Positions 2,744 to 5,140 of a DNA stretch of 35,077 nucleotides are shown in pieces. Both the position numbers and the translations under genes were made by a program. Below the pieces are notes generated by a model, which saw nothing but the letters and a program-made list of their open reading frames with translations, did no database searches and was not told the DNA's origin. The DNA lies in the NCBI GenBank assembly GCA_017991615.1, contig JAGOQF010000007.1, positions 1 to 35,077 of the forward strand, in the 5' to 3' direction. Each line of letters starts with the position of its first letter. Position 1 is the first letter of the stretch. This stretch comes from Candidatus Shapirobacteria bacterium (GTDB lineage Bacteria; Patescibacteriota; Microgenomatia; UBA12405).

Positions 2744-3586
2744 CTACTTAATTACAAATTTATTATCACCTTCCACGTCTACCATCAAAGTATTAATCTC
2801 TTGAACAGGCCCACTTATCATCGCATTTCCAAATCTTGACCCGTCAAACTCAACAGAAACTTTTATTGGTAAACCAGATGGTTGAATAATTGACACATCT
2901 TTAATACTCCCACCAGAGTTTAAAGCCAAACACATACCCAACGCTGTAGTCCCACTTCCACAAGCAGTTTCATAAAAAATAGTATTTATATCTCTCACAT
3001 AAACTACAGGTGAAATTTCAAAACCTTCTTGATTCTTAGATACAAATATTACACCAGCAGCAGGATAATTATCTATCTTCTTTTCCTTTATAATACTCAT
3101 ACCTAATGACTTAACCTCTTCATTATTCAATCCATCAATTTTGTTACTATCAAAATCTATATAATGAACAATCCCTTCCATTTTGACTAAACAATTCTTG
3201 GTATTAGGAGCATCAAAAACTATATTTGAAACTTCAGAATATATTGGCATTTGAGCAAAAGCCTCCAGATTTTCCGTAACACCTGCTTTTAATTTTTTAT
3301 CTACCCCTGAAACTTTTATATCTATTGTTCCAGGTTTACCTCCCAAGATTATCCAAGCAGAACTCCTAGTTGCATTTCCACAAAATTCTCCACCAGCCAT
3401 TGTCAATTCAGCATTATTGATATCAGTATTTATAAAACCAACCTGTTCAATATTTGGATAACATTCCATTAAAAAATCATTTAGTTTTTTTCTTTCATCC
3501 AAAGACTCAACATTTTTAATACACAATGCTGTATCATTTCCCCCAGACCTAATACAAACCACCTTTATAGACGAACAATTTTTCAT
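2744..3586 (-). CDS. Diaminopimelate-epimerase-fold amino-acid racemase, resembling CntK histidine racemase
   Basis: 280 aa, right for a two-lobed DapF-fold enzyme. The family racemises an amino-acid alpha carbon with two cysteines and no cofactor. Both are present: C69 in GGEFCGNATRS and C209 in YETACGSGT. The surroundings differ from classical DapF. EQVGF (47-51), M-x-GGEFCGNAT and KVSG (91-94) are closer to my memory of staphylococcal CntK, the histidine racemase of staphylopine synthesis, than to DapF. No other lysine or opine-metallophore gene is in the window, so the substrate is open. It starts 57 bases from the divergent histidine leader/tRNA-His unit. A TATAAT at 3595-3600 lies 8 bases before its ATG. 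Fold and catalytic pair are secure; histidine specificity is inference. Confidence 0.75.
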   Translation of the reverse strand: MKNCSSIKVVCIRSGGNDTALCIKNVESLDERKKLNDFLMECYPNIEQVGFINTDINNAELTMAGGEFCGNATRSSAWIILGGKPGTIDIKVSGVDKKLKAGVTENLEAFAQMPIYSEVSNIVFDAPNTKNCLVKMEGIVHYIDFDSNKIDGLNNEEVKSLGMSIIKEKKIDNYPAAGVIFVSKNQEGFEISPVVYVRDINTIFYETACGSGTTALGMCLALNSGGSIKDVSIIQPSGLPIKVSVEFDGSRFGNAMISGPVQEINTLMVDVEGDNKFVIK

Positions 3587-3608
3587 TCCTTTTAATTATA
3601 AAATTTAT

Positions 3609-3636
3609 TTGACAAAAATAATGAATTTGCTATCAT
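3609..3636 (+). promoter_or_regulatory. Strong promoter of the histidine leader / tRNA-His unit
   Basis: Consensus TTGACA -35 (3609-3614), 16-base spacer, TATCAT -10 (3631-3636) preceded by TGC, an extended -10. The expected start of transcription is about 3642-3644, exactly at the ATG of the leader ORF, so the leader would be translated without a 5' untranslated region. It is divergent from, and very close to, the promoter of the racemase gene. Confidence 0.8.
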
Positions 3637-3643
3637 CAGCGTA

Positions 3644-3688
3644 ATGATACAACAAACAAGATTACAAAGACATCATCACGCCAACTAA
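3644..3688 (+). CDS. Histidine leader peptide (14 aa) of an attenuator
   Basis: The ORF encodes MIQQTRLQRHHHAN and stops with TAA at 3686-3688. Three consecutive His codons (CAT CAT CAC, 3671-3679) lie just before the attenuator hairpins, as in his-operon leaders of other bacteria. Its ATG is 7 bases after the -10 box, the same leaderless spacing seen before many genes here. A ribosome waiting for charged tRNA-His at 3671-3679 would cover segment 1 (3679-3684) but not segment 2. A ribosome at the stop codon would cover segment 2. No Shine-Dalgarno sequence is present. The peptide itself probably has no function beyond being translated. Confidence 0.75.
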   Translation: MIQQTRLQRHHHAN

Positions 3689-3737
3689 TTGGCGGGTCTT
3701 TTCTTGTTTATTTATACCCGCCATTGGCGGGTTTTTT
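3679..3737 (+). promoter_or_regulatory. Transcription attenuator in front of tRNA-His
   Basis: Four segments with exclusive pairings. 1:2 is CGCCAA (3679-3684) with TTGGCG (3689-3694), loop CTAA. 2:3 is TGGCGGGT (3690-3697) with ACCCGCCA (3716-3723), 8 perfect pairs. 3:4 is CCCGCC (3717-3722) with GGCGGG (3726-3731), loop ATT, followed by six T (3732-3737), an intrinsic terminator. Segment 1 overlaps the last codons of the leader ORF. The next gene, 14 bases on, is tRNA-His, and no other + strand gene lies upstream that would need a terminator. The predicted logic is that ribosome stalling at His codons frees segment 2, forms 2:3 and lets transcription reach the tRNA. The alternative is two unrelated GC-rich palindromes, which do occur elsewhere in the window. 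Confidence 0.7.
3717..3737 (+). terminator. Terminator arm (3:4) of the attenuator
   Basis: A 6-bp all-GC stem with a 3-base loop and a run of six T. It stands between promoter 3609-3636 and the tRNA, so tRNA-His can be made from that promoter only by read-through. Confidence 0.75.
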
Positions 3738-3750
3738 AGTATCAAAATAT

Positions 3751-3825
3751 GGTGGTATTAGCTCAATTGGTTAGAGCGCAGCTCTGTGAAAGCTGAGGTT
3801 GACGGTTCAAATCCGTTATACCACC
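3751..3825 (+). tRNA. tRNA-His (anticodon GTG)
   Basis: Acceptor GTGGTAT (3752-3758) pairs with ATACCAC (3818-3824). D stem GCTC/GAGC, anticodon stem CAGCT/AGCTG around loop CTGTGAA (anticodon GTG), T arm with TTCAAAT. It shows the two identity marks of tRNA-His: an extra G at -1 (3751) and discriminator C73 (3825), which can pair. CCA is not encoded, so it must be added enzymatically. It lies 14 bases after the T run of a His-codon attenuator, which suggests its supply is self-regulated. Confidence 0.97.
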
Positions 3826-4006
3826 CTAAAAGTCATTAAGCTTGTGAAAAATACAGATTGGAGTTATAAGGTCGGCTACTGACCTTAAATACTCAAAAAT
3901 AGCCAATAAATATTTGGTTCACAAAAAAGATTGGTTATTGGTGTAAAAACACCTCAAGAAGCAGTTACTAAAGTTATAATTAAAGCTAAAGAATATATTC
4001 AAAAAT
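3826..4006 (+). other. Spacer between tRNA-His and the M20 peptidase gene
   Basis: Contains a hairpin AAGGTC (3868-3873)/GACCTT (3881-3886) with a 7-base loop but no T run, so at most a processing or weak termination signal. TATATT at 3994-3999 lies 7 bases before the peptidase ATG, so that gene may have its own leaderless promoter. An open frame without ATG runs from about 3910 to 4014 and ends by overlapping the peptidase start; it reads like a degraded gene tail but I cannot name it. Confidence 0.5.
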
Positions 4007-5140
4007 ATGGATAAAAACCCCACCATAATCATCTTAAAAAATCTAATCAAAGTTCCTTCTTATTACGAAGATGATTGTAATGAATCAGCGTTGATCGATT
4101 TTATTCTTAATTTTATTAAACAAAATACTAAATACAAATATGTCGTTCAAAAAGTTGATGGTGACAGAAAGAATATTTTGGTTTTTAACAAACCCAATCC
4201 TAAAATAGCTTTGTTTGGCCACATGGACACGGTTTTACCAAAAGCTGACACTAAAAATCCTTTTACTCCAAGAATAATTGGTAATAAAATCTATGGCTTA
4301 GGTGCCGTCGATATGAAAAGTGGTTTGGCAATTATGCTCAACTTAGCCCAAGAAATTAGTAATGATGATTTAGCCTTTATTTTTTCAGTGGACGAAGAAT
4401 ATGAATTTAAAGGTGCTCAAAAACTTAAAAATTATTCCAATTTTAAACCTAAATTTATTATAAATCTTGAGCCGACTGATAATAAAATCCTCAATGGCTG
4501 TCGGGGAATTACTGAATTTAGTTTTATTGTTCACGGTAAATCAGTTCACGCCGGTCGAAAAATATTTGGTATTAATGCTATTGAAAAATCGGTCGAGCTA
4601 ATAAATCTTTTTCAAAAAGAATTAACTAAAATTGATTTGCCTAATGCTGGTAAAACTTCAGTAAATTTATCATATATACATGGAGGTACTCTTAAAGTTA
4701 CTCAAAATGGTCAAGAAATTAGTGGTTTAGGTATGATAGTTCCAAATTATGCTGAAATTAATTGTGAAATTAGAGTTGGTAACCCTAAAATCACCCCAAA
4801 ATATATTCAAAATCAACTAAATCAAATTGCTAAAAACATTGGTATTAAAGTAAATAACTTTAATTTTAAATTTTATTTGGGTTCTATGTTAACTCCAAAA
4901 TCAAAATTAAAAAATTTTGAAAACACTTTAAAAGATTTGAAACAAAAAGTTGAATATGCCGATATTAGTTTATCTGGTTTTTATGAAGTTCAACTTTTGC
5001 AAGAAAAATGGAATAGTGATTGTCTGATTTTTGGACCTGGTCCAATAGCTATGTCTCACGCAGTTGACGAATATGCTGATATTGATTCAATTGTCCAAGC
5101 CGAAAAAGTTATTAAAAGATACATAGAAAAAACTGTTTAG
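4007..5140 (+). CDS. M20-family zinc metallopeptidase (DapE/ArgE/carboxypeptidase type)
   Basis: 377 aa, normal for M20. The family removes terminal residues or acyl groups from small peptides and N-acyl amino acids with two zinc ions. All the metal/catalytic stations are visible: H72 and D74 in GHMDTV, D102 in GAVDMKSG, the catalytic pair E130-E131 in DEEYEF, E155 in LEPTD, and H351 in SHAVDEY. The dimerisation domain sits between about 170 and 290. It follows tRNA-His, and read-through of the His attenuator could reach it, but a TATATT 7 bases before the ATG suggests an independent promoter. Substrate is unknown; lysine or arginine synthesis genes are absent here, so peptide scavenging is more likely than biosynthesis (inference). 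AT-rich codon use. Confidence 0.9.
   Translation: MDKNPTIIILKNLIKVPSYYEDDCNESALIDFILNFIKQNTKYKYVVQKVDGDRKNILVFNKPNPKIALFGHMDTVLPKADTKNPFTPRIIGNKIYGLGAVDMKSGLAIMLNLAQEISNDDLAFIFSVDEEYEFKGAQKLKNYSNFKPKFIINLEPTDNKILNGCRGITEFSFIVHGKSVHAGRKIFGINAIEKSVELINLFQKELTKIDLPNAGKTSVNLSYIHGGTLKVTQNGQEISGLGMIVPNYAEINCEIRVGNPKITPKYIQNQLNQIAKNIGIKVNNFNFKFYLGSMLTPKSKLKNFENTLKDLKQKVEYADISLSGFYEVQLLQEKWNSDCLIFGPGPIAMSHAVDEYADIDSIVQAEKVIKRYIEKTV

Follow-up and report, generated by a model that had tools for sequence, protein, structure and literature searches.

Locus organization

The window, by which we mean the whole 35,077-nt stretch of DNA analyzed here, carries on its forward strand a tRNA-His gene (anticodon GTG, 3752–3826; 70.1 bits against the Rfam tRNA family) whose identity base G-1 is encoded at 3751 and whose CCA end is not encoded. 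Upstream lies a promoter (3609–3636) composed of TTGACA (3609–3614), a 16-nt spacer and the extended -10 element TGCTATCAT (TG-C-TATCAT; hexamer 3631–3636), which makes 11 of 12 consensus matches in addition to the TG and is the only promoter-like site on either strand within 3300–4200. The ATG of a 14-codon open reading frame (3644–3688, stop codon 3686–3688, forward strand) follows 7 nt past the -10 element without a Shine-Dalgarno sequence, and its peptide, MIQQTRLQRHHHAN, includes the regulatory codons CAT CAT CAC at 3671–3679. Downstream of the tRNA, an M20 (ArgE/DapE-like) peptidase gene (4007–5140, forward strand) is possibly co-transcribed with it, although this is an inference; its putative product could be a histidine-releasing peptidase or deacylase.

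The end of the reading frame and the sequence beyond it can pair in several ways. Segment 1 (CGCCAA, 3679–3684) forms 6 bp with TTGGCG at 3689–3694, the first part of segment 2 (TTGGCGGGT, 3689–3697). Segment 2 forms 8 bp with segment 3 (TGGCGGGT at 3690–3697 with ACCCGCCA at 3716–3723), and segment 3 in turn forms 7 bp, six of them GC, with segment 4 (ACCCGCC at 3716–3722 with GGCGGGT at 3726–3732), which together with the T residues at 3732–3737 (GGCGGGTTTTTT, 3726–3737) completes an intrinsic terminator (3716–3737). Because the gene upstream of the leader is on the other strand, this terminator ends no upstream forward-strand gene. The promoter, the 14-codon frame with CAT CAT CAC, segments 1–4, the six-T terminator and the tRNA had all been described in an earlier note on this DNA, and each was confirmed base for base. 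The note had not included an additional pairing between segment 0 in the early part of the frame (AAACAAGA, 3654–3661) and segment 5 (TCTTGTTT, 3702–3709), which creates a long hairpin around the His codons and lengthens the 1:2 hairpin, itself weak alone. The window leader folds at -36.5 kcal/mol, compared with -21.2 kcal/mol for dinucleotide shuffles (z -4.4; 0 of 200 shuffles).

Conservation of the leader within the family

The window element was searched for in 57 relatives, where tRNA genes were then located and open reading frames listed. A His-codon reading frame, antiterminator and terminator precede tRNA-His in 21 genomes from 11 genera of the window's family (G000, which is the window genome, G001, G002, G008, G009, G011, G012, G015–G017, G019, G020, G022, G024–G026, G028, G029, G031, G032 and G034), so that the His codons and the frame, whose loss in relatives would have spoken against the earlier note, are kept in 20 further genomes. 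The family leader frames comprise 12–15 codons with 2–5 His codons each (for example MNTAVVILNHHHTTN, MTNKSKLSHHHRPV, MRQTSTNHHHHA and MNTLMSTHHHHHQ). In 10 of the 21 genomes the leader stop codon is only 57–76 nt from tRNA-His, and the same-genus genome G001 has kept its leader 59 nt before the tRNA. No such leader was found before tRNA-His in 14 of 35 family genomes, in some cases owing to contig ends.

Spacing is conserved at both ends of the frame. In all 23 family leaders examined, two of which precede hisS, a -10 element (at least 4 of 6 matches) ends 6–8 nt before the ATG and a Shine-Dalgarno sequence is absent, suggesting on sequence grounds that the leader mRNA is very probably leaderless. 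The first His codon lies 15–29 nt before segment 2 in 35 of 35 leaders, though their sequences differ.

Across 374 genomes of the class, a pattern search found 12 with a T run no more than 30 nt from a tRNA-His-like start; 10 of these belong to the window's family, indicating that tRNA-His as a direct target is mainly a trait of that family. Outside it, tRNA-His targets were found in two other families: in G047 the terminator stands 7 nt before tRNA-His, which is followed by hisS, and in G298 the distance is 71 nt. A search of plasmids returned only other tRNA matches.

Pairing specificity and covariation

RNAalifold applied to a MAFFT alignment recovered the 2:3 helix alone, with little covariation, a consequence of variable loop lengths and a conserved core. 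We therefore used per-sequence helices and a permutation-based swap test, in which the pairing of a segment with its own partner is compared with its pairing to the partner of another leader. For 35 leaders from about fifteen families, the 2:3 score was 19.93 with the own partner versus 15.37 (sd 0.54) with swapped partners, a difference reached in 0 of 5000 permutations; pairs from different families include GTTGGTTGGTGAG:TTCACCAGCCAAC and CAGAGGGTTGT:ATAACCCTCTG alongside TGGCGGGT:ACCCGCCA of the window. The 0:5 pairing (14.5 versus 11.0; 0 of 2000) and the 3:4 pairing (0 of 2000) were likewise specific. A 1:2 hairpin of 4–8 bp is present at the end of the reading frame and was not specific (169 of 2000). 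Of the pairs whose covariation the earlier note had put forward as a check on its model, 2:3 covaries strongly across families, 3:4 is specific by the swap test, and 1:2 shows only weak specificity in relatives.

The permutations disregard relatedness and do not give exact probabilities; a subset with one leader per genus gave the same answer. The 2:3 core hardly varies inside the family, where one pair has changed on both sides; the evidence for covariation comes from distant members and from flanking pairs. The antiterminator 2:3 and the terminator 3:4 are mutually exclusive and both conserved.

Predicted folding with a ribosome on the leader

We modeled folding around a ribosome whose footprint ends 16 nt past the first base in the P site, a size assumed from general knowledge. 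Before segment 4 is transcribed, a ribosome holding the first His codon in its A site gives a predicted 2:3 probability of at least 0.98 in all 25 leaders, and one at the stop codon gives 0.00 in all 25. Untranslated RNA, again before segment 4, was predicted to block 2:3 in 17 of 25 leaders. Once segment 4 is present and the ribosome is on the first His codon, equilibrium folding favors the terminator in 17 of 25 leaders, the window included, and 2:3 in 8 of 25. The decision for antitermination must consequently be a kinetic one.

Genomic context

The window genome contains 44 tRNA genes, and in stretches fetched around them only the tRNA-His of the window has an upstream frame with a run of cognate codons together with a terminator; terminator-like sites stand upstream of tRNA-Ala, -Cys, -Tyr, -Gln and -Met in this genome, without a comparable leader. 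This control, together with the conservation described above, rules out a chance reading frame. At tRNA-Ala(TGC) (L269, contig C7 of the window genome), a terminator-like hairpin at about 5430 lies 55 nt upstream of the tRNA and is followed by a TATAAT-like sequence, with no Ala-rich leader there.

A second copy of the leader element (MTDINLSLSNHHFATS) stands directly before hisS in the window genome. Both putative targets, tRNA-His and hisS, function in the use of the sensed amino acid, and provision of the tRNA would answer the same signal as that of the enzyme charging it. The proposal of the earlier note that the attenuator acts on tRNA-His is supported, but tRNA-His is not the sole target. 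M20-like genes lie between tRNA-His and hisS in G017, G026, G029 and G034.

Histidinol dehydrogenase (hisD, PF00815) was missing from all of the 57 relatives, whereas 13 of 14 controls have it. By this measure the bacterium seems unable to synthesize histidine through the known pathway, which fits the earlier guess that the cell imports it.

Proposed mechanism and alternative explanations

Together, the observed anatomy, conservation, covariation, geometry and absence of hisD make it highly likely that the tRNA-His gene is the direct target of ribosome-mediated transcription attenuation at this locus. Transcription would start at or beside the leader ATG, and a ribosome would translate MIQQTRLQRHHHAN. 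When His-tRNA is ample, the ribosome would reach the stop codon and cover segment 2, so that 3:4 forms and the transcript ends near 3737; untranslated RNA would adopt the long 0:5/1:2 hairpin, which frees 3:4 too. If charged tRNA-His is in short supply, the ribosome would stop on CAT CAT CAC and mask segment 1, leaving segment 2 free; 2:3 would form before segment 4 exists, and the polymerase would continue into tRNA-His. Charged tRNA-His would thereby repress its own gene, and its output probably rises only at low levels of charged tRNA-His. The interpretation of the earlier note as a whole, a plausible guess from the sequence alone, is well supported by the comparative data. In the absence of transcript data, termination, read-through and the rise of read-through at low charging are inferred, as are translation of the leader and the sensing of charging.

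The same DNA could be read in other ways. The terminator might close an unrelated short transcript, with tRNA-His transcribed from its own promoter and not regulated by the leader. Room for such a promoter exists in some relatives, where the terminator and the tRNA are 100–200 nt apart (L008, L013, L026, L038 and L041), and the other tRNA-His gene of the window genome has a plausible promoter of its own. In the window, however, the gap is only 14 bases and contains no promoter-like site, and the T run lies about 3–10 nt from the tRNA in G009, G028, G029, G034 and others (7 nt in G047); we consider this explanation highly improbable, and the separate tRNA promoter that would have refuted the earlier note was not detectable between terminator and tRNA-His. 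We give even less credence to an attenuator without a ribosome sensor, in which the terminator answers a HisRS-type protein or T-box-like tRNA binding and the reading frame is incidental. Strong hairpins do form without translation, and the free leader RNA already favors the terminator; yet sequence change around them has spared the His codons, the frame, the spacing from -10 to ATG and the distance between the His codons and segment 2. Moreover, no T-box or other Rfam family matched at the gathering score, and a permissive search gave only weak sub-threshold matches. The T-box family (RF00230) did not match the window in either search, and His_leader (RF00514) did not match it at the gathering score or at E up to 10, on which basis a T-box or known Rfam leader was rejected.

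It is also conceivable, if unlikely, that the window holds a decaying duplicate which came out of a tRNA-His/hisS operon and that the second tRNA-His gene of the genome (contig C14, L031/L074; 68.8 bits) is the working one. This second gene has no leader and lies about 2.1 kb upstream of hisS, whereas the window copy is not beside hisS. G002 likewise carries two tRNA-His genes, and one was seen in most other family genomes by a similarity search whose count is not exhaustive. Decay is hard to reconcile with a copy that is intact in every element, including G-1 and a tRNA fold scoring slightly above that of the second gene, and with the leader retained before tRNA-His in the same-genus genome G001. 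A decaying duplicate would be compatible with a mechanism that is real in relatives, and with an unattenuated second gene present it is uncertain how much the window copy matters physiologically. Should attenuation of tRNA-His by its own charging be correct, tRNA supply could be set gene by gene through the charging level of the tRNA itself, and the ultra-small, uncultured Patescibacteria, on whose gene regulation little is known to us, would gain a clear regulatory system.

Relation to known attenuation systems

Control of biosynthesis by leader-peptide attenuators is textbook knowledge, and synthetases are sometimes regulated in this way too. In the his operon attenuator of Enterobacteria (RF00514; the trp/phe/thr/leu type), the position of the ribosome decides termination. 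This system shares with the window a short frame with a His run, alternative 1:2, 2:3 and 3:4 pairings and an intrinsic terminator; the window differs in targeting a tRNA and not biosynthesis, in being leaderless without a Shine-Dalgarno sequence, in the long stem of the early reading frame, and in a host without histidinol dehydrogenase. T-boxes, which sense uncharged tRNA by direct binding and in Firmicutes often act on hisS, resemble the proposed system in that tRNA charging controls termination, but the T-box fold was not found in the window.

The charging machinery is itself a target of leader-peptide control elsewhere. A pheST attenuator operates in gamma-proteobacteria. Attenuators of trpS and leuS have been described in Streptomyces (PMC1262725). 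These three share such control with the window and differ in that they regulate synthetase genes only and no tRNA gene. In bacilli, hisZ and a hisS paralogue are preceded by a His leader peptide (Naville and Gautheret 2010, PMC2965389), which, like the hisS leader of the window genome, has a target of the histidyl-tRNA synthetase family; it differs in belonging to Firmicutes and having no tRNA gene target, and a common origin is not evident. His operon attenuators of Firmicutes, whose leader peptides contain three to five His codons, resemble the window in these codons and in the antiterminator/terminator pair, but their targets are biosynthetic operons (PMC9413887). In the open literature, with subscription journals and preprints outside our scope, we found no attenuator acting on a tRNA gene, the cognate one included; given this limit, priority cannot be asserted. 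The mechanism is of a known kind and the target, a tRNA gene, of an apparently unreported kind.

Related leaders elsewhere in the class

A covariance model built from 22 leaders gave matches in 73 of the 374 class genomes, with exactly two matches in the window genome, the window element and the hisS leader. Outside the family many matches were weak, and loci were counted only where a His-run reading frame and a terminator were both present, which left about two dozen. Named relatives in the class, Microgenomatia (Patescibacteria), are Beckwith-, Pace-, Roizman-, Woese- and Levybacteria. Divergent class leaders precede hisS, histidine-racemase-like proteins (G072, G143, G197 and G235; NCBIfam HisR/CntK E 1e-19 to 1e-27, below curated cut-offs), an inosine-uridine nucleoside hydrolase (G093) and uncharacterized genes. 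It is likely that tRNA-His is subject to self-closing attenuation by its own charged form, that in relatives this unit heads a tandem-attenuator tRNA-His/hisS operon, and that related leaders mark a histidine-salvage regulon spanning the class, with histidine-racemase-like proteins among its members, in bacteria lacking histidinol dehydrogenase. If so, the shared control element names candidates for histidine salvage, among them the racemase-like proteins and the M20 peptidase.

The gene divergent from the leader in the window (2744–3586, reverse strand) also encodes a histidine-racemase-like protein (NCBIfam HisR E 1e-25, CntK 8e-24, DapF only 6e-4), with both Cys motifs, GGEFCGNATR and ETACGSGTT. 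Its best PDB match is the histidine racemase 9cr6; the scores are below curated cut-offs and the activity is putative. This gene has no His leader of its own in the window; homologues in other members of the class do stand behind one. At two loci (L199, 1629–3032; L221, 2650–4083), a histidine-racemase-like domain fused to a GNAT acetyltransferase stands directly behind a His leader. Further leaders (L200, L197, L210, L220 and L229) precede a nucleoside hydrolase, weakly phosphoribosyltransferase-like proteins and operons with reading frames resembling purine nucleoside phosphorylase.

Tandem attenuators flank tRNA-His at L007, L014, L016 and L038, where a second leader frame (e.g. MIYLKFNLTHHTHTVVTNQRGVVLA) with its own terminator follows the 3' end of the tRNA. 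The ATG of this frame overlaps the A of the encoded CCA end, so that tRNA 3' processing and translation of the second leader may compete. This second leader type (HHTHTVV.NRRGV) recurs in other genomes (L003 at 1595, L010 at 1620, L008 at 2904, L027, L029, L037, and L089 at 4104), where it precedes M20 peptidase or other genes before hisS, and its reading frame extends through segment 2 in a geometry unlike that of the window leader. In Doudnabacteria, another lineage of Patescibacteria, short frames with HH or HHSHH (L128 at 4581, L130 at 2115) sit a few kb upstream of hisS and share a CCCCTGCAAGCGCAGGGG-T terminator.
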